Source of the DNA: Pseudoclavibacter soli DSM 23366
GTDB lineage: Bacteria > Actinomycetota > Actinomycetes > Actinomycetales > Microbacteriaceae
DNA length: 64,000 bases
Direction of reading: 5' to 3'
Assembly (NCBI RefSeq): GCF_000423505.1
Contig: NZ_KE384027.1
Coordinates: 559,140-623,139 of the forward strand
Each line of letters opens with the position of its first letter. Positions within the stretch are counted from its first letter, which is position 1. Under the pieces are notes generated by a model. It made no database searches and was not told the origin of the DNA. It saw nothing but the letters and a program-made list of their open reading frames with translations. The position numbers and the translations under genes are program-made. This document shows, piece after piece, positions 31,280 through 56,272 of this stretch.

Positions 31280-31378
31280 TAACCTCTGTCGCTGAGAACA
31301 GCCGTTTTGAGCGTATAGCTGCTCAGGGAATCACCTCTGAAGCCATCGAAGGGGGAATGCTTTGAGGCGACAGCGCTG

Positions 31379-34584: not shown

Positions 34585-34613
34585 TGATCGACACCAGATG
34601 AAAGTGAGCACCT

Positions 34614-35666: not shown

Positions 35667-36153
35667 TCCTTTAGAGTTCCGTCGCATAGACCTCGAATTC
35701 AAGGTGAATCACAAGGCTATATCGAGCCATATGCGACTCATGAGTGAGAGGGGTGAGTAGGGGGCAGCAGACGATAGCTGTATACAGTTGCAGAGGTCGT
35801 GCCGTTGAAGGGAAACAGGTAACGCCAACCACGGCGGAAGTCGGACTGTGGAGTTATCAGATGCAGCACCTAGTTCGTGACTCTTCGATAGGTGTCAGTA
35901 GGCGCTTTTCGTTCCTTATAGCAAGAATATGCCTCATCTGGTAGGGATGTGCAAATGCGCATCACTAGTCACACCTCAAAGTGATGACCTTCGAAATCAA
36001 AGCGATTGCCCCACAAGCATGACCCTCATATATGGATCGATGCTCGTATGGAACCAACCCCATGACGGTGTCTTTGGAAATAGAAGAATGGTGCAGAATG
36101 AACGAATGTATCGAATTGATAGTGGTGGAGATGGAGACTCGACGGGAATGTTC
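35667..36153 (+). other. Gene-free A+T-rich gap inside the polysaccharide cluster
   Basis: About 490 bases between neuB and the DUF4422 gene show no conserved reading frame. The next gene's frame is open from 35929, but that part reads as non-conserved sequence. A perfect palindrome CTGTATACAG lies at 35778-35787. The gap may be the remnant of a deleted gene or a junction from assembly of the cluster. Confidence 0.4.
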
Positions 36154-36939: not shown

Positions 36940-36985
36940 GTAAGAGCTGAAAGAAATAAAGGGACAGACAGGAATTGGAGTAAGC

Positions 36986-37999: not shown

Positions 38000-38027
38000 T
38001 GGTAGCTTTGGAATTAGGGTAGATCCT

Positions 38028-40723: not shown

Positions 40724-40734
40724 TCTTGCTCAAT

Positions 40735-41943
40735 ATGAATATGACAATGGGGCTCTCGACACCCAGAAGCGCGAAGCGTAGAGAATCCTGGTTTCTTGGC
40801 GGGTTGAGCCTTTGGCTGCTCGCGAAGGTGCTTCGTTACTCTATGTTTGTAGTTGAAACGCCTCAGCTCGAGCTGGTGTTCGTGGGAGTTGAATTCCTCG
40901 CCTTAGTAATTCTCATTTTATTCGAGCTGATTTTCAATTTTTCGCAAGCTTCAAAGGTGCTCACGATATTCGTCATCTTGCTGTTGACCGTCGTCATAAC
41001 GATGACAACCGGATACTTTTACTTGGCTGAAAGCGCCCTTATAATTGTCGTATCGCGCAACTGTAATTTGCGGTCAATTCTTCGTATCGCTTTTTGGACT
41101 TTGTGTATCGCTGTTGCGGTAGTTGTACTGACCTCTTTGGCTGGAATAATTCCGAACTATATCTTCACTTGGGGAGAACGAGTCAGGTTGGGGTTAGGAT
41201 TCAAGTATGCTACATATGTTCCAGCTTTCGCGTTCGCGTTGATCGCTCTATATGGGTATCTTCAGTTCGAATATCTGAAACTGAGTTATTTGCTTTCCGC
41301 ATTTTTCATCGAGGCCATTTTATTCTACTACACGGATACTCGTTTTCTAGCTGTCTTGGGCGCAGTTGGCGCGTTGTTTATGTTTATAGTTTCGAGATTC
41401 GTGATGCGTGATTCAAGAGTACTTCGGTTGTTGTGGATCACGCCTGCTTTATTTCTCGTTTTTCTTATCGGATCTTACTGGTTGGCAGTCATGTATGATC
41501 CGGGGAGCAACTCGTATAATTCGTTGAATGTCCTACTCAGCGATAGGCTCGCCTTGGGCCAAGCGGCGATATCAGACTGGGGTATTGCGTTGTGGGGACA
41601 AGAAGTTGAATACAATGCAATTACGTGGAACAGTGGTGTGCCAAGTCTACCTGACACCGTTAACGTCGTGGACTCATCATATTTGAGTGCCTTGTTGCTC
41701 TTTGGGCCAGTTGTCTCAACTGCAATTTTTTCTTGTCTAACTATGCTGGCAGTAAATGGCTGTCGGCGCAAAGATTGGGGGCTGGTCATAGGCCTGTTGC
41801 TTATGGCGATCATGGGGCTGTTTGAGCCTCGGCTCCTTCTTTTAGAGTACAATCCGTTCTTATTGTGCTTCGGGCCTTTATTCCTTCGTGCGAAGTCGAA
41901 ACCAAACATTGCCGACTCCCGCGTGGTATATCGAGGCGGGTGA
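40735..41943 (+). CDS. Putative Wzy-type polysaccharide polymerase
   Basis: A 402-residue, very hydrophobic protein with about 10-11 predicted helices and a large extracellular loop near residues 255-315 (DPGSNSYNSLNVLLSDRLALGQAAISDWGIALWGQEVEYN), the usual topology and motif style (RLALG...WG) of O-antigen polymerases. Such proteins share little sequence, so the call rests on topology and on its place beside the flippase. GTG 40702 is an upstream alternative start. Confidence 0.75.
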   Translation: MNMTMGLSTPRSAKRRESWFLGGLSLWLLAKVLRYSMFVVETPQLELVFVGVEFLALVILILFELIFNFSQASKVLTIFVILLLTVVITMTTGYFYLAESALIIVVSRNCNLRSILRIAFWTLCIAVAVVVLTSLAGIIPNYIFTWGERVRLGLGFKYATYVPAFAFALIALYGYLQFEYLKLSYLLSAFFIEAILFYYTDTRFLAVLGAVGALFMFIVSRFVMRDSRVLRLLWITPALFLVFLIGSYWLAVMYDPGSNSYNSLNVLLSDRLALGQAAISDWGIALWGQEVEYNAITWNSGVPSLPDTVNVVDSSYLSALLLFGPVVSTAIFSCLTMLAVNGCRRKDWGLVIGLLLMAIMGLFEPRLLLLEYNPFLLCFGPLFLRAKSKPNIADSRVVYRGG

Positions 41944-42108
41944 AGTCTGTAAGTTCACTCGGTCTGCTGAAGGTTTGGTTGGCTGTTTTCCTTATGCTGC
42001 GGTTGCAGTTGGTTGATAGGACAGTGTCAGGTGGCACCGTTTTTCTCTTTAGGCACACAGCGATTCACGTTGGCGAGTGTTCGCGGGAGCAGTGGGAACA
42101 GAGGCGCT

Positions 42109-42561
42109 TCATCCAGCATTTACATCTTGGGGCCGCTTCGAAGCGGTCGCAAGAAGAACGCCAATGAACCCCCCGAAACTATTCATCGCCACATCAAATA
42201 TGGAGGCGAAACGCTCGGGCAGTAGCAGCCCCTGACCGAGCTCAATAGTGACTGACACGGCTACGCAGCACAGTACGGCGACCCAAGCGAGACGGCGGGG
42301 CAGAAGCAGCGCGATCAGCAGGCCAGCTGGAATGAATAGCAGTACGTTCGCCGTGCGTTCCACGAAGGAGTAGTTGAGAAAGCCTGGTGCTCCGTGGGCG
42401 TGAAGCCACGCGAGAACGTGAAATAGTGTTCCATCGAGATCTCGGTCAACAGGTGTGGGCCAGAACGCGATGAAGCCAAGCGTCACCACATAAGCGGCTA
42501 GAGCAACGCTGACCCAAGCCCTGTGGCTGGGCGTGGGACTACGAGCGTGCGATTGGCGCAT
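42109..42561 (-). CDS. VanZ-family membrane protein
   Basis: A 150-residue protein with four hydrophobic helices. FWPTPVDRDL, NYSFVERTANVLLFIPAGLLIALLLP, and SVTIELGQGLLLPERFASIFDVAMNSFGGFIGVLLA form the VanZ pattern (ERxxN, IELxQ, R..D...N..G). The family's function is uncertain; VanZ itself gives low-level teicoplanin resistance. It converges on the putative polymerase and is divergent from the DUF4012 gene by 50 bases. A TAGCAT hexamer 6 bases before its start suggests a leaderless mRNA. The 165 bases before 42109 show no gene. Confidence 0.85.
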   Translation of the reverse strand: MRQSHARSPTPSHRAWVSVALAAYVVTLGFIAFWPTPVDRDLDGTLFHVLAWLHAHGAPGFLNYSFVERTANVLLFIPAGLLIALLLPRRLAWVAVLCCVAVSVTIELGQGLLLPERFASIFDVAMNSFGGFIGVLLATASKRPQDVNAG

Positions 42562-42611
42562 CCATTCATGCTACGCGGGGTAAAGCCTATCGGCGCGGTA
42601 AGCTGAAGCGC

Positions 42612-44450
42612 ATGCCCAAGCACCAAGAGAAATCTCGAGCAACGCAACGACATCGAGGCGAGAAACGACGTCGCCGCTGGCCGTGGGTCGTTGGGGCTAT
42701 CGTGCTGCTGGGGCTCCTTCTCGGTATCGCAGGGGCGGTCATCGCGACCAGTGCACTCAGCGCCCGAGACCACTTGCAGGCTGCGAAATCCAACTTGAGC
42801 AGGGTCTCGGATCTTTACAAGGCGGGTGACCGCGATGGCGCAAAAGCCCAGTACGTCAGCGCGCGAAACGAAGCCAGTGCAGCCTCTGACGATGTCTCTG
42901 GATGGTTGTGGTCTGCCGGGCAGGTGACTCCTTGGGCAGGGAGCAACCTCACTGCAGTGCGAACTGTCGCTGATCAGACGGCTGGAGTGCTGACTGATGC
43001 GCAGCCTCTGGCCGAGGCCGCGTTCGCGCTCAACCCGGATGAGCTCGTTCACGACGGGGCCTTAGATCTCGATTCTCTGACATCGTTGATCGGGCAGCTG
43101 GATCCGCTGGATGCCCGACTGGAGGACGCCAAGCAGGCGCTTGACGCGGTGAACACGGATGGGTTGGTTTCACAGGTTGCCGACGGGGTGACCCAGTTGC
43201 GCGATCAGGTGGATTCGCTGCAGCCAGGAGTGCAGCGAGCAGCAGATCTTGGACAGTATCTTCCGACCTTGCTTGGCAGTGACGGGCCGAAGAACTACCT
43301 GTTGCTCTTCCAGAACAATGCAGAGGTGCGAGCGCTTGGTGGAAACCCTGCTTCTCTGATGCTGCTGACCGTGGACAACGGACGACTTGAGATCAGCGAC
43401 CAAAAGTCGAGTGGTGATTTCTCGAATGGGCGTGCCACGCCTATCGCAGACATAAACGAAGATACGTACAGCGTGTTCATCTCGAACGTGGCTCGCTATG
43501 AAATGGACATGACCGGCTTGCCCGACCTACCGCAAGTTGCCACGTTAGCTCAGGCCTGGTGGAAGGACGCTGGAGGGACGCAGCAGATCGATGGTGTGAT
43601 GACGTTTGATCCGGTTGGGCTCAGCTATCTGCTTCGCGCGACTGGGCCGGTCACATTGCAGAACGGCGATGTGCTGACCTCAGACAATGTTGTGCAGGCG
43701 GTGCTCAGCGACGTGTACGCGAAGTATTCGCTGCCCGCCGCTCAAGATGCGTACTTTGCGGCAGCGGCTGCGTCGGTGTTCGACGCGTTGACGGACCAGC
43801 CGGTGGATGCGCAAAAGCTCGTTGAAGCACTCGGGCAGTCAGTCGACGAACGCCGCCTGCTGTTCTGGAGCGCTGACGAGAACGTGCAAAATGCACTCTC
43901 TGACAACAGTGACCTGCAAGGGGTTATTCCGGAAGACGGTACAGGGGCTGACGACACGACCTCGGTCGGCGTCTATCTCTGGGACACTACCGGCTCGAAG
44001 ATCGATTACCACGTGCGTAACGACAATGACCTAGTCAAGAAAGTCTGCCAGAGTAGTGGAACGACAACGTATAGCGTCGACATCTCGCTGACCTCAACCA
44101 TCACACCGGAGGAAGCGCAGCAGTTGCCGGCGTATGTGCTGCCAGACGGGCCAAAAGCGGCCCAACGCTTCGGCACGGACATCTACGTCTTTGGGCCGCA
44201 AGGCAGCACCTTCGCTGGCATGGAAGTGATCAGCGGTGGGCTTGACCAAGGAGTTCGACAGGAAGGTGCGACCTTGGGGCGGCCGGCGGTGCGAATCGGT
44301 ACACAGATGGCGTTCGGCACTACGACAACGGTTCGGGTGACTTTCACGGCGCCCACCGCAGCCAACGACCTCTCGACCCTCAACCTGCTGACTACGCCGA
44401 TGGTGCAGCCAGTCGGCGCGAAGGCCTCAACCACTGACGAGTGTGAGTAA
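42612..44450 (+). CDS. DUF4012 domain membrane protein
   Basis: A 612-residue protein: basic N-terminus, one membrane helix (about 25-47), a helical region (50-215), and the DUF4012 extracellular domain (YLLLFQNNAEVRALGGNPASLMLLTVDNGRLEI, ADINEDTYSVFISNV, DGVMTFDPVGLSYLLRATGPV). DUF4012 proteins resemble LytR-CpsA-Psr-linked envelope proteins and occur next to capsule genes in actinobacteria; a role in attaching or displaying the polysaccharide is inferred only. TAAGCT 8 bases before the ATG and lack of a ribosome-binding site suggest leaderless translation. Confidence 0.88.
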   Translation: MPKHQEKSRATQRHRGEKRRRRWPWVVGAIVLLGLLLGIAGAVIATSALSARDHLQAAKSNLSRVSDLYKAGDRDGAKAQYVSARNEASAASDDVSGWLWSAGQVTPWAGSNLTAVRTVADQTAGVLTDAQPLAEAAFALNPDELVHDGALDLDSLTSLIGQLDPLDARLEDAKQALDAVNTDGLVSQVADGVTQLRDQVDSLQPGVQRAADLGQYLPTLLGSDGPKNYLLLFQNNAEVRALGGNPASLMLLTVDNGRLEISDQKSSGDFSNGRATPIADINEDTYSVFISNVARYEMDMTGLPDLPQVATLAQAWWKDAGGTQQIDGVMTFDPVGLSYLLRATGPVTLQNGDVLTSDNVVQAVLSDVYAKYSLPAAQDAYFAAAAASVFDALTDQPVDAQKLVEALGQSVDERRLLFWSADENVQNALSDNSDLQGVIPEDGTGADDTTSVGVYLWDTTGSKIDYHVRNDNDLVKKVCQSSGTTTYSVDISLTSTITPEEAQQLPAYVLPDGPKAAQRFGTDIYVFGPQGSTFAGMEVISGGLDQGVRQEGATLGRPAVRIGTQMAFGTTTTVRVTFTAPTAANDLSTLNLLTTPMVQPVGAKASTTDECE

Positions 44451-44514
44451 TGCCTAAGTCAGTTGTGCAGAAAAAGTCGGCTAAACTGCCTGAGACCATA
44501 GAGGGGGTTGCCGC

Positions 44515-46125
44515 GTGACGGTACAGGAGTACTGGAAGATCGCCCGACGATACTGGATGCTGATCGTCGGGGCGCTGATCGCTGGCGTGGTATTGGCGAC
44601 AGCGGTGACGCTCTTCATGCCCAAGAAATATCAAGCGACGGCAAGCGGGTTCATTTCGGTTCCCGCCTCGCAAGAAACAGCTTCAGGCTCCGTCTCGGCA
44701 GATACTTATGCCAAGTCGCGGGCCAAATCGTATGTGGAACTGGGGCAGAGTAAGTCCGTAGCGGAAAAAGTCATCTCTCGGCTCGGATTGACCACGACAC
44801 CGGCAGCGCTGCTGGGGCAAGTCTCGGTGACTGCACCTACCAACACTGTGACCATTCAAGTCACTGCGACTGCGCGCACCGCCCAGGCATCAGCGGATTT
44901 GGCCAATGCATGGATTGATGAACTGACCGAGCAGATTAACGAAGTTGAATCTGCATGGAAGCAGACTGGCACTGAGGGCAGCGAAACCCCCGTGTCGACT
45001 CTGGTCACGTATGACGAGGCGACTGCGCCGACCTCAGCGAGCTCTCCGAAACTCATGCTGAACGTCGCCATTGGCGGGTTGGCCGGGCTCGTACTCGGTG
45101 CAGGTGCGGCAATTGCCCTCACCGTCTTCGACCGCCGCCTGCGCAGCGCCGAAGCCATCACCGAACAATTCGATGTGGCGATTATGGGCAAGCTGCCCGA
45201 GACGAACTGGTTCACGAAGCACAAGTCCCGGCTGCTCGCAGAAGAGACACAACACAGTCGCACGAAGGGCGACGCAACCACGGCGTTCCGCGAGGCACTG
45301 CGCGAACTGCGCACGAACATCCAATATGTCGACGTGGATCATCCAGTTCGGGCACTCATGGTGACTTCATCGTTGCCCGGCGAAGGCAAATCAACGGTGG
45401 CTGCAAACTTGGCTGTCGCACTCGCTGATGCAGGAGAGACAGTCGTACTGATCGATGGTGACCTGCGTCGCCCCACGGTGGCCAAGACCTTCGGCCTGTC
45501 ATCAGGTGCCGGTGTGACCGATGTACTCGCCGGGCGAGCCGAGTTGGGAGCAGTGCTGCAGCGCTGGCGTTTAGGCACGGAGCTGTACTTGCTGCCGGCA
45601 GGGCATTTGCCGCCGAACCCGAGTGAGCTTCTCGGCTCTGATGCGATGACTGACCTGCTGCGTGAGCTCTCGGGGTATGCAATTATCTTGATCGATGCTC
45701 CGCCCACGTTGCCAGTAACCGACGCTGCCGTGCTGAGCACCAAAGTCGATGGCGTGATTGTCGCGGTAGTCGCAGGCAAGACCACCAGTGACCAGCTCGG
45801 CACGACGCTTGAGCATCTGCACCGAGTCAAGGCCAACATCTATGGCGTGGTACTCAACCGTGTGCCGACCAAGGGTATCGACTCTGAAGGGTATGGCTAT
45901 TACTCCAGCGGGTACACCTCCAACGCTCCGGCAAAGCCCGTGACCGTAGAACGGGTGGCCCCTCTGCGCGCAGATGTGACTGCCGATGGGCGGTTACGAG
46001 TCACCCCCGATGCCACCGCAGCGCAGGCTCCGGTGAAGTCTTCCGCCCGGCCACCGCGTGCAGAGCACGCAGACAAAGACTTGAGCTTTGATGATCTTCT
46101 AGCATTCTCCAAGGATGAGAACTGA
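44515..46125 (+). CDS. Chain-length regulator fused to bacterial tyrosine kinase (Wzz/CapAB type)
   Basis: Controls chain length and export of polysaccharide by autophosphorylation. It has 536 residues from GTG. Helix 1 (about 16-36) and helix 2 (about 180-205) flank an extracellular Wzz domain (PKKYQATASGFISVPAS). The cytosolic kinase has Walker A SLPGEGKST with Lys292, Walker A' VVLIDGDLRRPT and Walker B IILIDAPPT. A tyrosine cluster GYGYYSSGY lies near 460, though followed by a 70-residue tail. The phosphatase gene follows 2 bases later. GAGGGGG precedes the start. Confidence 0.93.
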   Translation: MTVQEYWKIARRYWMLIVGALIAGVVLATAVTLFMPKKYQATASGFISVPASQETASGSVSADTYAKSRAKSYVELGQSKSVAEKVISRLGLTTTPAALLGQVSVTAPTNTVTIQVTATARTAQASADLANAWIDELTEQINEVESAWKQTGTEGSETPVSTLVTYDEATAPTSASSPKLMLNVAIGGLAGLVLGAGAAIALTVFDRRLRSAEAITEQFDVAIMGKLPETNWFTKHKSRLLAEETQHSRTKGDATTAFREALRELRTNIQYVDVDHPVRALMVTSSLPGEGKSTVAANLAVALADAGETVVLIDGDLRRPTVAKTFGLSSGAGVTDVLAGRAELGAVLQRWRLGTELYLLPAGHLPPNPSELLGSDAMTDLLRELSGYAIILIDAPPTLPVTDAAVLSTKVDGVIVAVVAGKTTSDQLGTTLEHLHRVKANIYGVVLNRVPTKGIDSEGYGYYSSGYTSNAPAKPVTVERVAPLRADVTADGRLRVTPDATAAQAPVKSSARPPRAEHADKDLSFDDLLAFSKDEN

Positions 46126-46127
46126 GC

Positions 46128-46850
46128 ATGCCGACTCGACGCTCTTTGCGTGCGCAGGAGCGAGCGAAACAGCAGCAACCGACTGGGCCAAGAAGGTTTC
46201 TGACACCCGGGCACTCCCTTTCTCGAGACGATGCTTCTGAGCTGCAGGATGAACACGCACGGCGATTTCGAGTGCTCACCGTCTGTACTGGCAATATTTG
46301 TCGCTCGCCACTGGCTGAGCTACTCATAGCGAGTCTCGTCGATCCGAAGCAGATCGAAGTGTCAAGCGCAGGGACAGGTGCGCCTGCGGGGTCACCTGTC
46401 GACGAGACGGTTGCGGAGCTGGCTAGCCTTCGTGGACTCGACCCCAGCAGACACCGAGCGCGCCGAATCACTGAGGAGATCATCGCTGGTAGCGATCTCG
46501 TGTTGGCGCTGACGGAACGGCACCGAGAGCGCGTGGTGGCGCTGCATCCGGCTGCGATTGGCCAGGCATTTACGCTGCGTGAGTATGCGACGATCGTCTT
46601 GGCCATCCAACGTGGCGTGGCAGCGGGGATTACTGAGGTGCCGAGCGGCCCGGAAGGATGGCGTGCATTGGCGGGAGACCTGCGCTCGTCAGTGCGACGT
46701 GCTGCACAGCAACGTGGGGATTCAGCCGATTGGCTGGATATCACCGACCCGATCGGTGGCACTCGAGACCTGCATGAGCGAGTCGCTGCTCATATCGAAG
46801 CTGCGGTGCAGGCAGTGGTGCCCGCATTGCGCTATAGCGCTGACCGTTAG
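46128..46850 (+). CDS. Low-molecular-weight protein tyrosine phosphatase
   Basis: Expected to dephosphorylate the neighbouring tyrosine kinase. It has 240 residues: a 45-residue basic extension, then the P-loop CTGNICRS with Cys53 and Arg59, and DITDP near 204 with the general-acid Asp. It is longer than the usual 150-160 residues because of the N-terminal extension and an insertion around 140-190 (VPSGPEGWRALAGDLRSSVRRAA). Kinase-phosphatase pairing is standard in Wzy-dependent capsule loci. Confidence 0.92.
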   Translation: MPTRRSLRAQERAKQQQPTGPRRFLTPGHSLSRDDASELQDEHARRFRVLTVCTGNICRSPLAELLIASLVDPKQIEVSSAGTGAPAGSPVDETVAELASLRGLDPSRHRARRITEEIIAGSDLVLALTERHRERVVALHPAAIGQAFTLREYATIVLAIQRGVAAGITEVPSGPEGWRALAGDLRSSVRRAAQQRGDSADWLDITDPIGGTRDLHERVAAHIEAAVQAVVPALRYSADR

Positions 46851-46925
46851 TAGCCTCTCCGGGCCTCTTGTCGGTTGTCGCCGTACAGCTTTCCCGATAA
46901 GCTGGAGAGAGACAGCAGGTGTTTC

Positions 46926-46944
46926 TAAGGCAAGCCTAAATTAC
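46926..46944. promoter_or_regulatory. DtxR/IdeR-like iron box upstream of sufC
   Basis: The 19 bases read TAAGGCAAGCCTAAATTAC and match the DtxR/IdeR operator consensus TTAGGTTAGSCTAACCTAA at 13 positions, including the core AGGnnAGCCTAA. It lies 40 bases before the sufC start, where iron-dependent repression of an iron-sulfur assembly operon would make sense. Found by eye; not scored. Confidence 0.5.
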
Positions 46945-46983
46945 TTGGATGCTGAACTCTGCTGCTGACAGGGGAGGGCGTTT

Positions 46984-47718
46984 ATGGCCGGTGCAAGTGC
47001 ACTTAGTCTGCAGGGTGTTGAGGTCGCGGCTGCGGGCCGTACCGTGTGCCGTGGTGTCGATCTTGACCTACCTCATGGTGAGATTCACGTGTTGTTCGGC
47101 CCTAATGGGTCGGGCAAATCATCTCTGCTGAGCGCGATCATGGGGTTGCCTGGGTATGAGCTCACTGCCGGGCGGGCGCTGCTTGACGGCACAGACCTTA
47201 CCGAACTCGACTTGGCCGGGCGCGCTCGAGCTGGTCTCGGCATCGCTTATCAGCGGCCCCCTGCGATCAACGGTGTGTCGATCGCGGCGCTCGCCGAATC
47301 GCTGGGCGCAACCGGGCATCTTCGCGAAGAAGAAGCCGCTCTCGACTTGGTGAATTTCGAATCGCGCGACGTGAACTCAGGGTTTTCGGGCGGTGAGATC
47401 AAACGCTGGGAGATTCTCAAACTGTTCTTGCAACAGCCAGAGGTGTGCCTCTTTGACGAACCCGAGAGCGGTGTTGACCTCGAACACATCGCCGCTGTCG
47501 GTGCCGCGATCGAGCGGCTGCTGGCCCAGCCCGCTCCGAGCGGACGCCCCCGATCTGCGCTGATCATCACCCACACCGGGTTCATTCTCGACTACGTGAA
47601 AGCGACCACCGGGCACATGATGATCGACGGTCACATCGTCTACTCGGGCCCAGCCGCCGAACTGTTCGACCACATTCGCAACCACGGATACTCGGTGCCG
47701 GGCGCATCCGCCGCCTGA
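46984..47718 (+). CDS. sufC: SufC-type ATPase of iron-sulfur cluster assembly
   Basis: SufC is the ABC-type ATPase that drives Fe-S scaffold rearrangement. It has 244 residues: Walker A GPNGSGKSS at 39-47, YQRPPAINGVS in the Q-loop, signature FSGGEIKRWEILKL, Walker B VCLFDEPESGVD, and the switch histidine in IITHTGFILDYV. FSGGEIKR and DEPESGVD with the ExDxGxD-like pattern separate SufC from transport ABC proteins. It is the first gene here and is followed directly by one SufB/D-type gene, not by the full sufBDCSU set. A strong GGGGAGGG site precedes it. Confidence 0.9.
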   Translation: MAGASALSLQGVEVAAAGRTVCRGVDLDLPHGEIHVLFGPNGSGKSSLLSAIMGLPGYELTAGRALLDGTDLTELDLAGRARAGLGIAYQRPPAINGVSIAALAESLGATGHLREEEAALDLVNFESRDVNSGFSGGEIKRWEILKLFLQQPEVCLFDEPESGVDLEHIAAVGAAIERLLAQPAPSGRPRSALIITHTGFILDYVKATTGHMMIDGHIVYSGPAAELFDHIRNHGYSVPGASAA

Positions 47719-47747
47719 ACCCGACCCAAGAGAAACGGAGCTCAAAG

Positions 47748-48862
47748 ATGAGTACAGTCGCACTGAACACTCCACTGCCGGTCGCGGTGCAAGACAGCCT
47801 CGCCCCGATCGGGTACAGCGACGAAGCACAGCGCGCCGCTACGGTCGTGATCGTCGACCAGAACGTCGGGCATGTCTCGGTGACCGATGCCAACGTTGAA
47901 GTGCTGCCGCTTCAAGAGGCGCTGAAGACGCACGACTGGGTGCAAGATCTGCTGTGGAGCCTGATCGCGCCCGAGGAGAATGACGATGTGCGTCGCGTCG
48001 CCGAAAGCACAGAGCCGGTGAACGGGCATTTCATTCATGTGAAGGCCGGTGCTGATGTGAAACTCCCCTGCGGGCGTTCACCGTACTTGAGACTCCGCAG
48101 GGGCGACAGCACGTGCATAACCTCACCGTGATCGAAGAGGGAGCCCGCGTCGAGGTCGTTTCAGGAGACGCGGTTGCGCCCATCGTGCGCGCCGGTGAGC
48201 ACGTCTCGATTTCAGAGACCTTCATTCGAAAGGGCGCGGTTTACAACGAGACCAGCTTGGAACACTGGGGCGGCGACATGCAGGTACGCTCCTATTCTCG
48301 CACCCTGATCGAAGACGACGCCACGGTCACGACGACGCCTATTGCGCTGCATGGCATCAAACACCATCAAGACGAGGCCAAGGCCGTAGTTGGTCGCAAT
48401 GCGACCTACAATTCGCAGTCGGTTGTCTATGCACCAGAAGGCACCGAACGCGTCAGCATCAGCGAGCTCGAACTGCTTGATGACGGCGCCAGTGCGGAGA
48501 ACCTCGCGCGCATGGTCGCCGCCGGAGGGCGCATCGAGCACCATTCCAAACTGGTGGGTACCGGTACCAACACCAAGGGCTACCTGGGCTGCGACGGGCT
48601 GAAGATCGATGACCAGGGCTACATCGAATCGGTGCCGTCGCTGCGCGCGATCAACGACCAGTCGCAGTTGTCGCATGAGGCCTCGATCGGCACGATCGAC
48701 CAAGAGAAGCTCGGCTACCTGATGGTCACGGGGCTCGACGAGGAGGCCGCACGTAACCTCATCATTTCGGGCTTCCTCGACCTTGAAGAAGGCGTACTGC
48801 CAGAGTCGGCACGTGAGCAGGTGCGGGGATTTGTCGCCCAGGCGCGATCAGGTGCGCTCTAG
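47748..48862 (+). pseudogene. SufB/SufD-family Fe-S scaffold, interrupted by a one-base frameshift
   Basis: Two frames together encode one protein. The first runs from ATG 47748 to HVKAGADVKLP; the second continues as LRAFTVLETPQGRQHVHNLTVIEEGARVEV to the end SHEASIGTIDQEKLGYLMVTGLDEEAARNLIISGFLDLEEG, a typical SufB/D ending. The switch is at the C-run near 48065-48068; one extra C would restore a 371-residue protein. Without it, the first frame stops at 48131. The short length, and Cys in GYLGCDGL, fit minimal SufB-like scaffolds. It may be a sequencing error, a true lesion, or -1 slippage on CCC. Partner of sufC. Confidence 0.8.
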
Positions 48863-48876
48863 AAGTTACTGGAGCG

Positions 48877-48905
48877 CTCGCTGACGGTCTACAATCGTCA
48901 GCGAG
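48877..48905 (+). terminator. Hairpin after the suf pair
   Basis: A perfect 10-bp stem CTCGCTGACG / CGTCAGCGAG with a 9-base loop lies 15 bases after the stop codon. No T-run follows, but it is the only strong hairpin before the next operon. Confidence 0.6.
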
Positions 48906-49043
48906 GGTGGGAGCCCCCCATCGTCGAGTCAATCTACGAGGTGTTGGGTTTCGTGCTGCCTGGCAAGTGATTTTTGACCCGCACCGGTGGGAGAAAACGC
49001 CGCATGGCCTGACTGCGGACTACGAATCTGGAGACGGATCGTG

Positions 49044-49079
49044 ATGATTCACACACTGCGCAAATCGGTATGATTCATA
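49044..49079 (+). promoter_or_regulatory. Possible promoter of the cyclic-di-GMP/GT2 operon, within a direct repeat
   Basis: TATGAT (49069-49074) is a good -10 box, 17 bases after GATTCA (49046-49051). Both lie inside a direct repeat, ATGATTCACA (49044-49053) and ATGATTCATA (49070-49079). CACACT/AGTGTG and TGTGAG/CTCACA inverted pairs surround it, suggesting a regulated site. No cyclic-di-GMP riboswitch could be recognised in the 293-base gap. Confidence 0.4.
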
Positions 49080-49155
49080 GTGTGAGCTGAGTATCACCTC
49101 ATGTCTCACAGCCTGATGCGCCCGGGGGAAGACGGCGCGTGAAGAGGGAATCATC

Positions 49156-50523
49156 ATGGAGCTGTCAGCGCTGGAAGTATGGCTGGTTCGGCTGGCTGTG
49201 AGCTTCTTTCTGATCGCTGCGGTGACCGTGGTGACGTATTTCGTCTACTCGCGTCGGCGGGCTACCAGCGCGTTGGCAAGCGACGATGTGAAGCTGCGCT
49301 ATTTCGTGCAACGGCAAGTCGATGCACAAGGGCAGCTCAGCGGGTATGAATGCCTGCTGCGCCAACGCACGGAAGACGGCAGCTGGGTTCTGCCCGCACA
49401 GCTCGAGAGTCTGCCGCTGCGCCGCGCCATCGAGTTGCTCGACGACACGTTTGCGGCACTGCCCAGCGAAGCGACCAGACTCTCGATCAACCTCTCCTAC
49501 GAACAGATTATGAGCTCCGAGTTTCTCTACTTCGTGCGCTGGGCGGTCAGCAAGATTCGGCCGATGCAGCTGGAGATCGAGATGAACGTGCATACCCGTC
49601 AGCTCTCGCGCAGGCGTTGGAGATTCCGCCGTCACATTCGCCGCGGCAAGGCCTATGGCATGCAGTTTGCGCTCGACAACATCGGCTCAGACAACAACGA
49701 CCTCGACCGCATCCAATGGATGCTGCCGCTGATCGATACGCTGAAATGCTCGATGAAGAGCTTTCGCAAGAAAGACCCGTCGGTCTGGCTCGATGTGAAC
49801 CTGCAGTTCTGGAATGTGTTTGCGCGAGAACACTCCATTCGGCTGGTGCTGATCGGTGTCGAAGATGCTCAAGATCTCGCGCTCGCCGAGCAGCTTGGCA
49901 TCAGCCTGCGGCAGGGGTTTCTCTTCGATCGCCCGTCTGACCCCGTCGCCGCCCGAGCTGCTCAGACGGTTTCTCCTCAGCCCTCCGCACCTGGCGCGGA
50001 GTCAGCCAGCCCGTCTGCTCGGCGGCAGATCTACACAGATCTCTATTTTGAGCCGGGGCACTGGTGGCGCAAGATATGGCAGACCGTTGTCGCACTGGTC
50101 GGCTGGTGCGCAGTCATTGTGCCGGTCATCGTGACGGTGCAGAGTTACACTGCCGCGCGAACCGGTTTTGGCACGCCTTTCTGGACGTACTCCGAAGGGC
50201 TCTTCGAAATCGAGTTTATCGGCATGATCTTGGCCTTCTGTGCGGTGATTATATTGACCTATACGCTGTCGATGACCATCATCCAAGTGCGTAAGCGGGC
50301 ACGCTTGGTCGATCAGTGGCCGACTTTCGACCCGATCGAGCGTGATCAACGCAGGGATGCTGTGGCCGCGTTCATGGACCAACGCTTCGGCGATGCCGAC
50401 TTTCGGCATACCGTGCGCACCTATTGGGTAGAACCCGAGCAGAATCTCGAAACCAATGCGCTGCAGCGGCTGTTCACTCGTCGGCATGCGGCGCAGCGTC
50501 GCGGGCTGGGGAAGTCGCGATGA
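49156..50523 (+). CDS. Membrane protein with degenerate EAL domain (putative cyclic-di-GMP receptor)
   Basis: A 455-residue protein: helix 1 (9-30), an EAL-like domain (about 45-265), then two helices (about 310-335 and 355-385) and a basic tail. EAL positions are altered: ECLLR for EALLR, EIEMN for the ELTES motif, LDNIGSD for DDFGTGYS, LKCS for VKID, LIGVED for AEGVE, while INLS and QGFLF remain. Metal ligands are therefore lost and hydrolysis is unlikely; binding cyclic-di-GMP is possible. Its ATGA overlap with the GT2 synthase gene suggests it controls that enzyme. AGAGGG precedes the start. Confidence 0.8.
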   Translation: MELSALEVWLVRLAVSFFLIAAVTVVTYFVYSRRRATSALASDDVKLRYFVQRQVDAQGQLSGYECLLRQRTEDGSWVLPAQLESLPLRRAIELLDDTFAALPSEATRLSINLSYEQIMSSEFLYFVRWAVSKIRPMQLEIEMNVHTRQLSRRRWRFRRHIRRGKAYGMQFALDNIGSDNNDLDRIQWMLPLIDTLKCSMKSFRKKDPSVWLDVNLQFWNVFAREHSIRLVLIGVEDAQDLALAEQLGISLRQGFLFDRPSDPVAARAAQTVSPQPSAPGAESASPSARRQIYTDLYFEPGHWWRKIWQTVVALVGWCAVIVPVIVTVQSYTAARTGFGTPFWTYSEGLFEIEFIGMILAFCAVIILTYTLSMTIIQVRKRARLVDQWPTFDPIERDQRRDAVAAFMDQRFGDADFRHTVRTYWVEPEQNLETNALQRLFTRRHAAQRRGLGKSR

Positions 50524-51905
50524 TCGACCATGTGCTAGAAGCAGGCCCTTGGGAGACCACTGGGGTTATAGCGCTGCTCATCCTGATCCTCTACCCGGTG
50601 CTCGGGTCGTTTTACTGGTCGTTCGGTGCCCTGGCCTATCGTTTTCTGGGGCCGGCGGCCGATGATGACACGTGGGAACAGCTCGCACCCGAGGAGCAGC
50701 CCAGGGTCACGATCATGATTCCGGCACACAACGAAGAGCTGATGATCGAGTCGACCATTGTGTATCTGTTCGAGCAGATCAACTACACAAACTACGACGT
50801 GCTCGTGCTTGATGACGGGTCAACTGACCGCACTGCTGAGATCGTGCGCACCCTGCAGGTGCGCTATCCACAGCTACGCATGATCTCGATCCGGCACAAC
50901 AAAGGCAAGGCTCATGCCTTCAACATCGGCATGCACTTTGCCAACAGTGAGTACATTCTGAGTAACGACGCCGACACCGTGCCCGAACCAGATGCGCTGA
51001 TGAAATACATGCAGTACTTCATTCACGACCGCGATCTGAATACTGCTGCGGTGACGGCGAATATGGATGTGCAGAATCGCACCAAGTTGATCGGCAAGTC
51101 GCAAACTGTCGAGTTCTCAAGCATTGTCGGAGTGATCAAGCGCAGTCAGGCGGCAGTCAACGACGCTATGTACGCATACAGCGGCGCAAACACGATGTAT
51201 CGAAAATCGTTTCTGGTCGATGTGGGCGGTTTTCGGCAGGATCGGGCAACCGAAGACATCAGCATCTCATGGGACCATCAGATGCGCGGAGCAGTGCCGC
51301 GATTCGCACCCAACATCATCTTCCACATGAACGTGCCAGAGACGATCCGAGACCTCTATCGACAGCGTCGGCGGTGGGCCCTTGGCGGCACTGAAGTCTG
51401 GTTGACGAATATCAAAGAATTCGTATTTCACCCTTGGCGCCATCGGTACCAGTTGTCGATGTTCATTGATACAACCCTGTCGATCCTCTGGTCGTTCTTC
51501 TTTCTTATCACTTCGGTGGTCTTCTTCTTGACCTTGATCCTTTTTGCATCGACTGGCAACACAGAACGACTGTTACACGCTATTGAGATGTCGTTCATCT
51601 TCGTCACGTTCGAGATGTTTGCCGGCTCGGTGCAGCTGCTGACCGCGCTCATCCTCGACAGCCGAGGAGCCAAATTAAAATACTGGTTCTTCGCCCCGCT
51701 CTACATGCTCTTTTTCTGGATGATCAACCCGATCACCATCGTCACGACTTTCCTGCCAGCAGTCGAGTCAGTACTCGGTCTGGGGTCGGGAGTCTGGCGA
51801 AGTCCGAAGCGCGTGCAGCTTCTTACCGACGGCGACGAGATGAGGCAGCGGTGCACACTGAATACTGATCTGCGAGCTGAGAGTGACGTGTGGTCTAACC
51901 GCTAG
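50520..51905 (+). CDS. Processive GT2 polysaccharide synthase (PgaC/cellulose synthase-like)
   Basis: A 461-residue membrane glycosyltransferase: one N-terminal helix (about 15-37), a GT-A domain, then four to five helices. The four synthase signatures are present: LDDGSTDRT, NDADT (DxD), TEDIS and QRRRW in YRQRRRWALGG. The pattern fits poly-N-acetylglucosamine or cellulose/hyaluronan-type synthases; product not determined. No PilZ domain and no PgaD-like gene are nearby, so the adjacent degenerate EAL protein may supply cyclic-di-GMP control. The ATG overlaps the previous stop. Confidence 0.88.
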   Translation: MIDHVLEAGPWETTGVIALLILILYPVLGSFYWSFGALAYRFLGPAADDDTWEQLAPEEQPRVTIMIPAHNEELMIESTIVYLFEQINYTNYDVLVLDDGSTDRTAEIVRTLQVRYPQLRMISIRHNKGKAHAFNIGMHFANSEYILSNDADTVPEPDALMKYMQYFIHDRDLNTAAVTANMDVQNRTKLIGKSQTVEFSSIVGVIKRSQAAVNDAMYAYSGANTMYRKSFLVDVGGFRQDRATEDISISWDHQMRGAVPRFAPNIIFHMNVPETIRDLYRQRRRWALGGTEVWLTNIKEFVFHPWRHRYQLSMFIDTTLSILWSFFFLITSVVFFLTLILFASTGNTERLLHAIEMSFIFVTFEMFAGSVQLLTALILDSRGAKLKYWFFAPLYMLFFWMINPITIVTTFLPAVESVLGLGSGVWRSPKRVQLLTDGDEMRQRCTLNTDLRAESDVWSNR

Positions 51906-51915
51906 AATCAAAGCG

Positions 51916-54315
51916 ATGGCACACCTGAACTCACGCCTCCCCATCACAGTCGAAGATCAGACTGTGGTCGACAGCATGTCCAGGTATCCCTACCGAGTTC
52001 GTGCAATTGTCGCTGCAGCTGCTGCACTGCCAGTACTCATCGGCGTTGTCGCATCGGTTGCGTTGACCACGCTGCAGATGCTCGAGGGCGACACCCAGCG
52101 AAACCTGCCGTACTTGGCCGTGCTGGTTTTCTGCATGTATATGATGCGTGACGTCGGCGTGCAAATTACCCGCGGTGCACACGCACTGCGCATGACGCTG
52201 TTAGCCCCAACACTGGTGTTCTTGTATACCGGTGGGTTCTATAACTCGTCTTACGCGATCTGGACAGTGGTCACGTTCATCATCTTGCAGCTGTCCGCCT
52301 ATGACCGCAGATCGGCTTGGCTGCAGGCCTTGGTGACTTCTTTTGTCGGCTTGGTGTTCAGCGCTGTCGCGGCGATTGCCACCGCGTTTGACCTGCCGAG
52401 CATGATTTCCACAATGATCGGTTGCACCGCATCAGTGTTCGCTGCCGGGCCGCTCTACAAACACATGCTGCGCACCTCGCCAGGCACGACTCTAGTGCGT
52501 ATTCACTGGACGAGGCTGGCCGCGATCGCCGCGGGTGAAACGGCCCTGTGCTGGTTGGCCATTGGAGCGCACCACCTCTCTCAAATAGCTGGCGCCAGTG
52601 CATTTCTCGATGTGCGCGCGGTGACCGCCTTGATCTGCACAATGGTCATCGTCTCGTGGTATCAGAGCTATCGGCGACGTCTGCTGCGTCGCCAGCTCGA
52701 TACCGTGGTGAATGCCTCGCTGGCACTACCTTGGAATCCCACGCGTCAGCCCGTGCTCGACCAGCTGGTGGGGTTCGTTCGTCGGGCTATTCCCACAGGG
52801 AGAGTGCTGCTGCGTGAGCAGCCGCCCACGGCTGCAGAGATCGGTGAACGTGTCGATGTGCCAGGCGAACACGACGAGTACCTGGTGGTCACCAGCCAGA
52901 ACAATATGGCACCGTTTTCGAGAACCGAGCAGCATATCGTCGAAGGTCTTGTGCATATGGCTTCGGTGACGCTCGCGTCACAGCGCGAGATCAGCGATCT
53001 CTCGCAACGAGCCAACACCGATGAGCTCACGGGGCTGCTCAACTACCGCGGCTTCAAGCTGGTGACGAAACAAGCAACACAGAACGAGGGGCATACACCG
53101 CCAATCATCTTCTTCGACCTCGACGGCTTCAAACAGGTCAATGACAGTCTCGGCCATGGCGTGGGCAATTTGGTGCTGCAGGAGGTTGCCAAACGTCTGC
53201 GCGGCGCCCTGCGGCCGACCGACATCATTGCGCGCATCGGTGGCGATGAGTTCGTCGTCGTGCTGCCGGGCACCCCTGACGAAGACACTGCGCGTGCGGT
53301 TGCGGCCCGTGCACAAGAGAGCATTCAGCGCCCGATGCACATCGACGGTCACACCTTGGGCATCAAAGCCAGCTACGGCGTCGCCGCTGCGGCGCAGGGG
53401 CGCAGCGATCCGGCGGAGATTCTCGAAGAAGCTGACGAGCGCATGTATGAGGGCAAGAAGCGGCGCATCCTGCCTGGGTCAAAGCAGCACACTGAGCACT
53501 CGTCTGACATGGAGATGAGCGTGCGCCACGCCATCCTTGAAGAACGCTTGACCATCGCGCTGCAGCCGACCGTGCGCCTGGCCGATCAGAAGATCATCGG
53601 CGTCGAAGCCCTCGTGCGTTACCGCGACGAGAGCCTGGGCGACGTCCCGCCGCAGTTGATCGTCGATGTGGCAGACCGTTCGGGGTTGCTCCCTCAGCTC
53701 ACCCGTCAAGTGGTCGACGCGGGCTTTGCCGCCATGGAGCGCATTCAGAAGATCGAGCCATCAGTCAAGAGCCTGAATGTCAATTTTGAGGCTGGGCAGG
53801 TGCTCGATGCAGAGCTGATGGCTCATGTTGCAGAGCTGGCGCAGATGCATCCGAATGTGCAATTCGTGTTCGAGCTCTCCGAGCGCTCGCTCGACCAGGC
53901 CACTGACAGCGTGCTGCAGCATCTAGTCGACTTCACCGAGCACAACGGCATTCTGTTGGCTCTGGATGACTTCGGTAAGGCGTTCTCTTCGGTGAACAGT
54001 TTGGTGCGGTTCCCGGTCAATCTGGTGAAGCTCGACAAATCGCTGACTGACTACTTGGTGACGCGACCAGAGCGGGCGCGCGAACTCATCGGCGGTGTGG
54101 CACGCCTCGCCAAGCGCATGCACTTTGCGATCAGTGCTGAAGGCGTCGAGCATGCAGACCAGTGTGTGTTGCTGCAAGAGGTGGGCATTCGATATGCCCA
54201 AGGGTTTCTTTACTCGAGGCCACTGCCGCTCGATCAGCTGCTCACGCGGCTGCGCGACTACAGCGCCGAGGCCCTGCTGATCGACTGCAAGCCGCAATCA
54301 GACCGGGGTGCCTGA
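51916..54315 (+). CDS. GGDEF-EAL cyclic-di-GMP enzyme with membrane sensor region
   Basis: A 799-residue protein: 6-8 helices in residues 30-255, a GAF-like stretch (265-355), GGDEF domain with intact GGDEF at 442-446 (IARIGGDEF), and an EAL domain with Glu564 in GVEALVRYR, ELSER, LALDDFGKAFSS, LVKLDKS, AEGVEH and YAQGFLYSRPL. Both active sites look usable, so it could make and break cyclic-di-GMP. It follows the GT2 synthase by 10 bases and its end overlaps the convergent SGNH gene by 18. The first Met at 51916 is used; the ribosome-binding site is weak. Confidence 0.92.
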   Translation: MAHLNSRLPITVEDQTVVDSMSRYPYRVRAIVAAAAALPVLIGVVASVALTTLQMLEGDTQRNLPYLAVLVFCMYMMRDVGVQITRGAHALRMTLLAPTLVFLYTGGFYNSSYAIWTVVTFIILQLSAYDRRSAWLQALVTSFVGLVFSAVAAIATAFDLPSMISTMIGCTASVFAAGPLYKHMLRTSPGTTLVRIHWTRLAAIAAGETALCWLAIGAHHLSQIAGASAFLDVRAVTALICTMVIVSWYQSYRRRLLRRQLDTVVNASLALPWNPTRQPVLDQLVGFVRRAIPTGRVLLREQPPTAAEIGERVDVPGEHDEYLVVTSQNNMAPFSRTEQHIVEGLVHMASVTLASQREISDLSQRANTDELTGLLNYRGFKLVTKQATQNEGHTPPIIFFDLDGFKQVNDSLGHGVGNLVLQEVAKRLRGALRPTDIIARIGGDEFVVVLPGTPDEDTARAVAARAQESIQRPMHIDGHTLGIKASYGVAAAAQGRSDPAEILEEADERMYEGKKRRILPGSKQHTEHSSDMEMSVRHAILEERLTIALQPTVRLADQKIIGVEALVRYRDESLGDVPPQLIVDVADRSGLLPQLTRQVVDAGFAAMERIQKIEPSVKSLNVNFEAGQVLDAELMAHVAELAQMHPNVQFVFELSERSLDQATDSVLQHLVDFTEHNGILLALDDFGKAFSSVNSLVRFPVNLVKLDKSLTDYLVTRPERARELIGGVARLAKRMHFAISAEGVEHADQCVLLQEVGIRYAQGFLYSRPLPLDQLLTRLRDYSAEALLIDCKPQSDRGA

Positions 54316-55131
54316 GGCGAGCTCGGCAAGATCTTCGCCAGTGGCCTGTTGCATCGCGGCCAGAATGTCATCGGCGATCACCTCATTGCCCCAGTCATTG
54401 GGGTGGTCGCCATCGCCGAGCACCAGCTCCGGGCGGTTTTCGAGCGGATGGCCGATGTCGAGATACGTTGCCCCGGCTTCCAGCGCGGAGCGTCGCACAT
54501 CGTCCCGGATGCCGGGCAGATCAGCCGGTTCTTCACTGGCATTCCAGAATGGACTGACCACGTAGACCGGAGTGTGCGGAAAACGCTCGCGCAAGCTGGT
54601 GAAGAAGTCGTCAATGAGCGTCGCCTGCGTGGCTGTGGAGAGGTCAGAACCGGTGTCGTTGCCGCCTCCGGTGACCATGATCGCGTCAGGCGCCAGATCG
54701 GCGGGAAGCTCATCGAGCACATTGGTGTAATCGGGGCGCACCTCGCCGTCGTCGTCGACAACTTGGGTAAAGTAGCCGGTTCCCCCCAAAGCCACATTGT
54801 CTTCCTGCCAGCCGAGCTCGTTGCTGATCAGCGTGGTGAAGCGCTGATCAGGGTCGTCGAGCACCTCGCCGGAGGTGTAGGAGTCGCCGATGAACAGCAC
54901 CGACGGAGAGACTGAGTCTGCCGCCGTGACCTGCTGATCAGGGCTCTGTTCGTCTCGTGCCTGTGCCGCGTCGGACGCATCGGTCGCTGCTGGATCTTGC
55001 AGGGTGTATTGGTGTGAGGCGAGCGTCGAGGCGGTGACCAGCACAGCACCGACAGCCAAAGCCGCAGGTACACTGATGCGCAGACGAGTGAGACTGCGCC
55101 GCCGTTTCTGTGTCGCACGCCGGGTGGTCAT
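54298..55131 (-). CDS. Membrane-anchored SGNH/GDSL hydrolase
   Basis: A 277-residue protein with a basic N-terminus, one membrane helix or uncleaved signal (about 17-40), an acidic linker, and an SGNH domain: GDSYTSG with Ser84, GGTGYF, GGGND and DHPND with Asp/His. SGNH hydrolases act as esterases, including O-acyl removal from polysaccharides and peptidoglycan. Placed tail-to-tail with the cyclic-di-GMP/GT2 genes, it may edit the exported glycan; this is inference. Confidence 0.88.
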   Translation of the reverse strand: MTTRRATQKRRRSLTRLRISVPAALAVGAVLVTASTLASHQYTLQDPAATDASDAAQARDEQSPDQQVTAADSVSPSVLFIGDSYTSGEVLDDPDQRFTTLISNELGWQEDNVALGGTGYFTQVVDDDGEVRPDYTNVLDELPADLAPDAIMVTGGGNDTGSDLSTATQATLIDDFFTSLRERFPHTPVYVVSPFWNASEEPADLPGIRDDVRRSALEAGATYLDIGHPLENRPELVLGDGDHPNDWGNEVIADDILAAMQQATGEDLAELASGTPV

Positions 55132-55208
55132 CCCTCACACTGTACTCGCGTGTAGCGGCGGAGAGATTGTGAATCTCGCGTAGGCGAGTACACACAAAGG
55201 AGAATCTG

Positions 55209-55985
55209 ATGATTGTTCACGATGTTGCTTTTCCGACCCTGGTCGCCTTTGACCTCGATGACACCCTCGCGCCATCGAAGTCGCGCGTGCCGCAGCAGAT
55301 GGCGCAGGTGCTGCGTCGCCTGCTCGATCGGGCACAGGTCGCGGTCATCTCGGGCGGTAACCTCGAGCAGTTTCAGAAGCAGGTGTTGGCGGCACTCGGC
55401 GACGCTGGTGTGACTGATGCCGAACTCGACCGGCTGCATCTGCTGCCCACCTGCGGCACGAGGTACCACAGGCATCGCGATCACGCCTGGCACGAGGTGT
55501 ATGCACAGGATCTGACGGCTGACGAAAAGCGGGCGGCAACCCACGCGCTGACCGACGAGGCGAAGCGGCTGGAGCTGTGGCCGGCATCCCCCTGGGGGGA
55601 AGTGATCGAAGATCGCGGATCACAGATCACCTTCTCAGCGCTGGGACAACAGGCTCCGGTTGAGGCGAAGCAGCAATGGGACCCAACTGGTGAGCGAAAG
55701 GATGCGCTGCGGCGCGCGGTGCAGCAGCGACTGCCCGATCTCGAGGTGCGAGCCGGAGGCACCACCTCGGTCGACATCACCCGACGCGGTATCGACAAAG
55801 CCTATGGCATCAAACAACTGCGGGATGCGACCGGCATCGGTCTCGATCAGATGCTCTTCTACGGCGACAAGCTGCACGAAGACGGCAACGACTATCCGGT
55901 GAAAACGCTCGGTGTGCGCTGCATCGAGGTCACCGGTTGGCCCGACACGGTGGCCGAGCTCGAGACGCTGCTCGATCAGGCCTGA
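55209..55985 (+). CDS. HAD-IIB family phosphatase
   Basis: A 258-residue protein: VAFDLDDTLAPSKSRVP holds Asp15 and Asp17 of HAD motif I; VAVISGGNLEQF is motif II; GGTTSVDITRRGIDKAYGIKQL holds the lysine; MLFYGDKLHEDGNDYPV is motif IV. The C2 cap resembles phosphomannomutase/sucrose-phosphatase-like HAD-IIB enzymes. Substrate unknown; sugar phosphates are likely. An AAGGAG site precedes the ATG. The last 10 bases overlap the convergent glutaredoxin gene. Confidence 0.88.
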   Translation: MIVHDVAFPTLVAFDLDDTLAPSKSRVPQQMAQVLRRLLDRAQVAVISGGNLEQFQKQVLAALGDAGVTDAELDRLHLLPTCGTRYHRHRDHAWHEVYAQDLTADEKRAATHALTDEAKRLELWPASPWGEVIEDRGSQITFSALGQQAPVEAKQQWDPTGERKDALRRAVQQRLPDLEVRAGGTTSVDITRRGIDKAYGIKQLRDATGIGLDQMLFYGDKLHEDGNDYPVKTLGVRCIEVTGWPDTVAELETLLDQA

Positions 55986-56272
55986 GCGAGGCCCAGCTCA
56001 TTGAGCTTGCCTTGAAGCTCGGGATTGCTGGGCTCGACCTGGTGAGTGCCGTCGGGGAAGGCGATCACGGGGATGTTGGTGCGCCCGCTGATGTCTTTGG
56101 CCTCTTGCGCACGGTCTGGCTCGGCTTCGAGGTCGATGTAGGTGAAGGCGACGCCTTCGCGGTCAAGCAGTGCTTTGGCACGGCGGCAGTCGCCGCACCA
56201 CGATGCGCCATAGAACGTGATGCCGCTGTCGGGCGTCGAAGTGGAGTCTGCAGAAGTCGTGGTGTCTGTCAT
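55976..56272 (-). CDS. Glutaredoxin-family (mycoredoxin-like) protein
   Basis: A 98-residue thioredoxin-fold protein with a CxxC site (Cys26, Cys29 in SWCGDCRRAK), the cis-proline segment TNIPVIAFPDG and an N-terminal extension rich in Thr/Ser. Actinobacterial members (mycoredoxins) use mycothiol. It converges with the HAD gene and is divergent from glpD. Confidence 0.88.
   Translation of the reverse strand: MTDTTTSADSTSTPDSGITFYGASWCGDCRRAKALLDREGVAFTYIDLEAEPDRAQEAKDISGRTNIPVIAFPDGTHQVEPSNPELQGKLNELGLAQA

Follow-up and report, generated by a model that had tools for sequence, protein, structure and literature searches.

The closest described counterpart of the locus reported here is the gts operon of Lactobacillus acidophilus La-14. 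As far as the available text of the report goes, this operon encodes a degenerate EAL receptor (PdeB), a two-helix subunit (GtsA) and a BcsA/PgaC-like glycosyltransferase of family 2 (GT2; GtsB), the PdeB EAL domain binds cyclic di-GMP (c-di-GMP) with a Kd of 4.87 μM, and GtsA plus GtsB gives more Congo red staining and more biofilm in Escherichia coli; the genome is described as having a single GGDEF protein (PMC6123363). We analysed a 64,000-base stretch of the Pseudoclavibacter soli DSM 23366 genome (the window; positions 559140-623139 of a 645,611-base contig, genome size 2.22 Mb). It contains a three-gene operon, A-B-C, that likewise combines a degenerate EAL domain, a two-helix subunit and a GT2 synthase in one operon, in a genome with one GGDEF protein. 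However, EAL, GtsA and GtsB are separate proteins in L. acidophilus, whereas the EAL domain and the GtsA-like part are fused in a 455-aa frame in the window. DgcA and PdeA are also separate enzymes of a second operon (dgcA-pdeA) there, whereas a single GGDEF-EAL protein is encoded in the same operon here. L. acidophilus was compared by its description, and same-order loci of Limosilactobacillus, Lactococcus and Lactovum (L061-L066, L111, L112) by sequence. The unit thus appears to be a variant of the Gts kind; the PdeB-GtsA-GtsB type is known from the available text (PMC6123363), and the receptor-subunit fusion, the cross-phylum origin and the replaced predecessor would be new. Neither an EAL-GtsA fusion nor such a synthase replacement was named in the literature searched, which consisted of titles and abstract openings and included few subscription journals.

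Other synthase systems share parts of this design. PgaC-PgaD and IcaA-IcaD resemble it in GT2 type and in having a small two-helix partner. However, B lies under the cut-off of the PgaC_IcaA family (304.8 vs 422.3 bits), its partner has no Pfam PgaD match, and the putative receptor in the window is an EAL domain; PgaCD binds c-di-GMP at its own interface. The locus differs from the BcsA type in the lack of PilZ, for which no match was found in the whole genome at E 0.001. The inactive EAL receptors LapD and FimX have the EAL fold in common with A; their outputs are protease control and pili, and not a synthase. In Listeria, PssE is described as a degenerate signalling-enzyme domain that serves as dedicated receptor of the exopolysaccharide synthase Pss, like the putative role of A (PMC4125290, available text). 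PssE is a degenerate GGDEF that uses its I-site, whereas A has an EAL domain with ExLxR.

Gene A and the c-di-GMP gene content of the genome

The start of B overlaps the stop of A (ATGA), B and C are separated by 10 bases, and the 3′ end of C overlaps that of a convergent SGNH hydrolase gene on the opposite strand by 18 bp (Table 1). A preliminary description of this DNA had reported three same-strand genes with an overlap or a 10-base gap and a convergent SGNH gene; the genes and their spacing agree with it, with the start of B now placed at 50520 and that of C at 51916. One GGDEF and two EAL domains scored above the Pfam cut-offs in the genome, and every one of them lies inside the operon. 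By these families, the complete c-di-GMP enzyme set of the genome is this operon. The earlier view of a self-contained signal-and-synthase unit is borne out to the extent that the sole GGDEF of the genome is in the operon; the locus is not a conserved actinobacterial operon.

Residues 37-260 of A matched the EAL family at 61.5 bits (cut-off 31.3). In an alignment with the EAL domain of C and 19 relatives, A retained Q52, E65-x-L67-x-R69, N112, E142, D174, K197, Q253 and P260. Two positions were altered: I233 stands in place of the catalytic Glu of AEGVE, and N175 in place of the second Asp of DDFG. The AEGVE Glu was absent from all 19 aligned relatives. With the roles that we take these residues to have (catalytic, metal-site, ExLxR), A keeps ExLxR and has lost catalytic residues, as expected of a receptor-type EAL. 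In an AlphaFold2 model of A (predicted local distance difference test score, 85.4; predicted template modelling score, 0.67), an EAL-like fold is followed by a linker of low confidence (275-294) and then by long helices that span 303-336 and 346-387. Foldseek matched A with c-di-GMP-bound EAL structures, including those of LapD (3pju) and FimX (3hv8). Helices were predicted at residues 8-26, 310-328 and 349-367; by the positive-inside rule, read by eye, the EAL domain and the C-terminus would lie on one side of the membrane.

Residues ~291-440 of A constitute a two-helix synthase subunit of the GtsA type, in the position of PgaD and, as in Gts systems, beside a GT2. Residues 285-455 were aligned with 27 relatives, with 46-53% identity to the nine nearest; the relatives are small two-helix proteins encoded beside GT2 synthases. 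This part of A is a synthase subunit and no generic anchor, and its position and form are those of GtsA of L. acidophilus. The preliminary description had found neither PilZ nor PgaD at the locus. The statement holds for PilZ but not for PgaD, whose position is occupied by the two-helix subunit within A. A label as PgaD homolog was considered and rejected: the subunit alone matched only DUF4212 (E 0.87) in Pfam. PgaD (PF13994, as we take it) was not found among 25 of the 74 families listed for the 28 subunit members.

A profile search of 125 related loci gave no instance of EAL and subunit within a single frame, and the window is the sole fused case seen. The species-genome scan for relatives kept the best 80 loci (L046-L125), so the absence of other fused copies holds among the matches listed. 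In the family of Paucilactobacillus vaccinostercus, the subunit was present in 81 of 301 genomes, in frames of at most 239 aa save one; the exception was a weak partial match in a 446-aa frame (E 3.8e-5), and the genome concerned has a copy of 176 aa as well. EAL and two-helix protein are encoded by separate, adjacent or overlapping genes in lactic acid bacteria. Of 55 loci (L046-L098, L111, L112), 16 have the three genes side by side in the order EAL, two-helix transmembrane protein (TM), GT2, and 8 have them as TM-GT2-EAL; the highest identities to the window were 56% (EAL), 55% (TM) and 75% (GT2). Co-occurrence in relatives, which had been proposed as a check of the module, gave a divided answer: the trio A-B-C was seen nowhere else, and EAL, two-helix subunit and GT2 stand together widely in lactic acid bacteria. 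The fusion in A implies contact of the putative receptor with the synthase complex.

Kinship of gene B and the remnant of another synthase

B matched Glycos_transf_2 at 97.9 bits, and its best NCBIfam match was PgaC_IcaA. It contains the motifs DDGSTD, NDADT, TED and QRRRW, the last being the QxxRW motif of Gts-type GT2 synthases in the EAL-linked clade. We take these motifs, and those of C, to have their customary roles. Among the matches listed from 84,980 species genomes, the top loci for B were those of Paucilactobacillus vaccinostercus (75% identity), Pediococcus ethanolidurans (73%) and Lactiplantibacillus (71%). In a 52-row tree, from which L. acidophilus GtsB itself was absent, B paired with the Paucilactobacillus row (L046) with a support of 95 in the Shimodaira-Hasegawa-like approximate likelihood ratio test, and B plus 16 Lactobacillaceae rows formed a 17-row clade with support 99. 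Approximately unbiased (AU) tests rejected a grouping of B with the actinobacterial loci L083 and L086 (p 6e-69) or with L092, L098 and L035-L037 (p 2e-55). The cross-phylum kinship of B with the lactic-acid-bacterial type is firmly established on these trees. An AU test that joined the 8 actinobacterial rows in a single clade (p 1e-29) was discarded as unspecific to B, because these rows are spread over separate clades in any case.

C matched GGDEF at 133.4 bits and EAL at 161.6 bits. It contains RIGGDEF together with the EAL, DDFG and AEGVE motifs, and an RxxD I-site precedes GGDEF by five residues; from these motifs, C is predicted to be a bifunctional cyclase/phosphodiesterase. Its N-terminal region had no Pfam match at E 1 and no match in 247 other genomes of the order, a sample that evidently did not include the congener G577. 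This congener has a full-length ortholog of C; identity is 53% over the N-terminal part and rises to 64% for EAL and 67% for GGDEF. Directly before the ortholog lies a gene (L233, minus strand, from 12553) for a GT2 of ~690 aa that carries MshEN at its N-terminus. In addition to GT2 families, this protein matched PF05157 at 35.8 bits (cut-off 23.1), with two 24-residue motifs and a 5-residue spacer (24+5+24) and some substitutions, and is thus an MshEN-GT2. MshEN is described as a c-di-GMP receptor domain that is also fused to glycosyltransferases (PMC5013675, PMC8669469; available text). The gene pair of G577 looks like NfrB (GT-MshEN) with DgcJ of E. coli, which the available text presents as a locally c-di-GMP-controlled synthase (PMC8669469). 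However, MshEN is C-terminal in NfrB and N-terminal in G577, and the window keeps only the gene tail.

This tail, located just upstream of A (Table 1), matched the end of the G577 MshEN-GT2 with 90% identity across 30 aa (E 7e-13) and the end of its gene with 81% identity across 85 nt (E 2e-16). There were 14 synonymous and 3 non-synonymous differences among 30 codons. Because the codon differences are mostly silent, most of the divergence seemingly arose under selection, and the loss would be recent relative to the split. Beyond the remnant and C, no shared gene was found in the flanks of the window locus and of G577; the locus therefore seems to have moved as well. C appears to be native to the genus. 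The simplest history of the locus is that A and B displaced a resident MshEN-GT2 while C stayed. The donor was probably an unsampled one, given that B reaches 75% identity with its closest relative whereas the protein sequence of the remnant has stayed nearly intact; this donor may already have had the EAL-subunit fusion.

Other possible traces of transfer were considered and set aside. The GC content at third codon positions of A, B and C was 0.71-0.73, within the range of the neighbours (0.59-0.81), and base composition was rejected as a transfer signal; overall GC was lowest in B (0.546). A plasmid vehicle was rejected, as only 6 weak records were obtained for A. In an empty-site search via the downstream HAD gene, HAD alone of 13 window genes matched 14-kb stretches of three congeners, and this route gave no clean insertion site; the remnant was recognised by tracing C. 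Loci L035, L036, L037, L092 and L098 form an actinobacterial GT2-subunit lineage of their own, and two of them (L035 and L036) encode a membrane protein of unknown family, ~310-320 aa long, after the pair.

Co-occurrence of EAL and GGDEF genes, and alternative explanations

We determined which of the subunit-carrying genomes also have a GGDEF gene, and sorted them by EAL neighbour. In a first set of 48 genomes, GGDEF was present in 20 of 22 genomes with an EAL neighbour and in 10 of 26 without one; the two exceptions (L058 and L078) were the two rows of this set in which the EAL lacked ExLxR or other site residues. A second set consisted of 64 further genomes of the 81 with the subunit, and the EAL was classed before GGDEF was looked up; two unclear loci were left out. 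GGDEF was present in all 38 genomes with an ExLxR-intact EAL, absent from the one with a decayed EAL (L215), and over the cut-off in 3 of 23 without EAL. In the combined 110 classified genomes, GGDEF was found with 58 of 58 ExLxR-intact EALs, 0 of 3 decayed EALs and 13 of 49 EAL-less loci (Fisher p 7e-19 if the rows were independent). The proposal that the degenerate EAL protein is a dedicated receptor is favoured by this comparative evidence, by the single GGDEF of the genome and by the c-di-GMP binding described for its relative PdeB.

Several of the loci in these sets have features of their own. The EALs of L058, L078 and L215 stand beside the synthase, have lost site residues and belong to genomes without a GGDEF match; they are apparently receptors that decay with the loss of the signal. 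Four of the 58 loci (L112, L183, L187, L196) have the EAL in two overlapping frames, owing to frame breaks or sequencing errors, with GGDEF present, and at L200 the contig stops short of the GT2. A single frame of L222 (4545-5294) matches both a portion of the GT2 and the final stretch of the EAL profile, indicating a degraded or chimeric locus. L207 has two tandem subunit-GT2 pairs without EAL, in a genome without GGDEF.

We consider it probable that the locus is a self-contained c-di-GMP-gated exopolysaccharide synthase operon in which transferred A and B replaced an MshEN-controlled GT2 beside C. In this scheme, C, besides which no diguanylate cyclase was found in the genome, would make c-di-GMP and also remove it by its own EAL. 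The degenerate EAL of A would bind c-di-GMP in the cytoplasm without cutting it, and the fused two-helix subunit would sit against the membrane synthase B, like PgaD on PgaC. Ligand binding would be passed directly from A to B and switch B on, and B would polymerise and extrude a glycan. The PgaC likeness suggests, but does not show, that the polymer is poly-N-acetylglucosamine. A and B, which belong with the Gts systems (PdeB, GtsA, GtsB) of lactic acid bacteria, would have arrived by horizontal transfer, and the native signal source C would now drive a foreign synthase.

A number of observations weigh against this explanation. Shared ancestry confounds the association of EAL and GGDEF: EAL state changed independently only 4 times on the GT2 tree, and 3.8 of 4 tree-based pairs agreed (sign test p 0.125). 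Loci with D174 and/or N112 variants were predicted to lack GGDEF, but GGDEF was present in five of six. Subunit-GT2 pairs had no EAL in 49 of the 110 genomes, and the core synthase thus need not use c-di-GMP. A position of B just outside the 16 Lactobacillaceae rows was not rejected in the AU test (p 0.125), and B may thus lie inside or beside the Lactobacillaceae clade. The PgaD likeness of the subunit rests on position and two-helix form only. A retains most metal-site residues, which leaves room for residual phosphodiesterase activity.

The last point leads to an unlikely alternative, in which the EAL of A is a weak or active phosphodiesterase that acts as a local sink at the synthase, and B is controlled otherwise. 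The metal-site residues E65, N112, E142, D174 and K197 are consistent with such an enzyme; however, the replacement of the AEGVE Glu in A and all 19 relatives and of the second DDFG Asp argues against it, C already supplies an intact EAL, and L. acidophilus PdeB is described, in the available text, as binding c-di-GMP and having no enzymatic activity (PMC6123363). The direction of control by A is also a prediction, and the imported synthase might be constitutive, or inhibited by c-di-GMP-loaded A, with a merely historical link to C, as the commonness of EAL-less subunit-GT2 loci would allow. We regard this as rather unlikely, because ExLxR-intact EALs were always accompanied by GGDEF and the three decayed ones were in GGDEF-less genomes, such that the EAL is seemingly kept for its ligand, and because the fusion holds the EAL in the synthase complex.

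The remaining alternatives concern the history of the locus. If the remnant were a separate small conserved element, and not the fossil of a replaced synthase, the differing flanks of the window and G577, in a locus that has also moved, would be accounted for. This is very unlikely in view of the strong match to the G577 gene end, on the same strand and before C in both genomes, with an in-frame stop. In addition, the remaining GT2s that B matched within the window's own genome were in frames of at most 351 aa, vs a 1041-aa frame for the G577 MshEN-GT2 in the same search. An EAL-TM-GT2 operon ancestral to Actinobacteria and lost in relatives, without transfer, would fit the related subunit-GT2 pairs of two other actinobacterial lineages (L083 and L086; L092, L098 and L035-L037), but the AU tests rejected B with either. 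Moreover, the subunit was matched in only 4 of 396 genomes of the order (query, the C-terminus of A itself) and 2 of 396 of the phylum (query, the alignment; the second match weak, E 8e-4), the window's genome included in both counts, vs its frequency in the Paucilactobacillus vaccinostercus family, and three other congeners had no close B (best at most 31%). We therefore give almost no credence to an ancestral operon.

There is about an even chance that c-di-GMP-controlled synthases behave as plug-in cassettes, an MshEN-GT2 having been swapped for an unrelated receptor type, an EAL-GtsA fusion plus GT2 of the lactic-acid-bacterial kind, at the same signal enzyme, with the second messenger as the sole interface. 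A local c-di-GMP source could then be re-wired to a new synthase, and the fused EAL-GtsA would combine receptor and subunit in one piece within a whole three-gene c-di-GMP network. c-di-GMP sensing by Gram-positive GT2 synthases without PilZ has been little explored. The locus offers a natural receptor-subunit fusion in one chain, in a three-gene network with no GGDEF or EAL paralogues to confuse tests. Across 110 genomes, the comparative signature ties the EAL gene to a diguanylate cyclase in the same genome, and the fossil suggests an exchange of one receptor-synthase type for another at an unchanged signal source.

Neighbouring features

Table 1. Features of the A-B-C locus (window positions).
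Feature	Position	Strand	Description
Remnant	48946-49044	+	3′ end of MshEN-GT2 gene; 32 codons and stop
Operon leader region	49045-49155	+	ribosome-site-like stretch GAAGAGGGA, read by eye
Gene A	49156-50523	+	455 aa; TM helix, degenerate EAL, linker, GtsA-like two-TM subunit
Gene B	50520-51905	+	461 aa; processive-type GT2 synthase, PgaC/IcaA-like
Gene C	51916-54315	+	799 aa; membrane N-terminus, intact GGDEF, intact EAL
SGNH hydrolase	54298-55131	-	convergent to gene C

A riboswitch or other structured leader before A was looked for and not seen: no significant RNA fold was obtained for 49044-49155 (z -0.45), and an Rfam scan of 46000-56000 at gathering scores gave no match. The SGNH hydrolase domain scored 72.2 bits. 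None of the 80 loci L046-L125 contained a match to its gene at E 1e-3, and the gene is probably outside the conserved module; a role in polymer modification is possible. A distant relative of this gene (33%) adjoins a GGDEF-EAL gene in the family member G117 (L239:6721-9646).

Upstream of the operon, a SufD-like gene is present in two overlapping frames (47748-48131 and 48113-48862, with SUFBD_core in the second), reflecting a frame break or an assembly error; it lies after a sufC-like gene (46984-47718). A capsule-type region (28492-46850) containing genes for a sugar transferase, NeuB, a cytidylyltransferase, a GT2, DUF4422, DUF4012, a Wzz-kinase and a low-molecular-weight phosphatase ends shortly before the c-di-GMP operon, and GC content falls to 46% at 36-42 kb.

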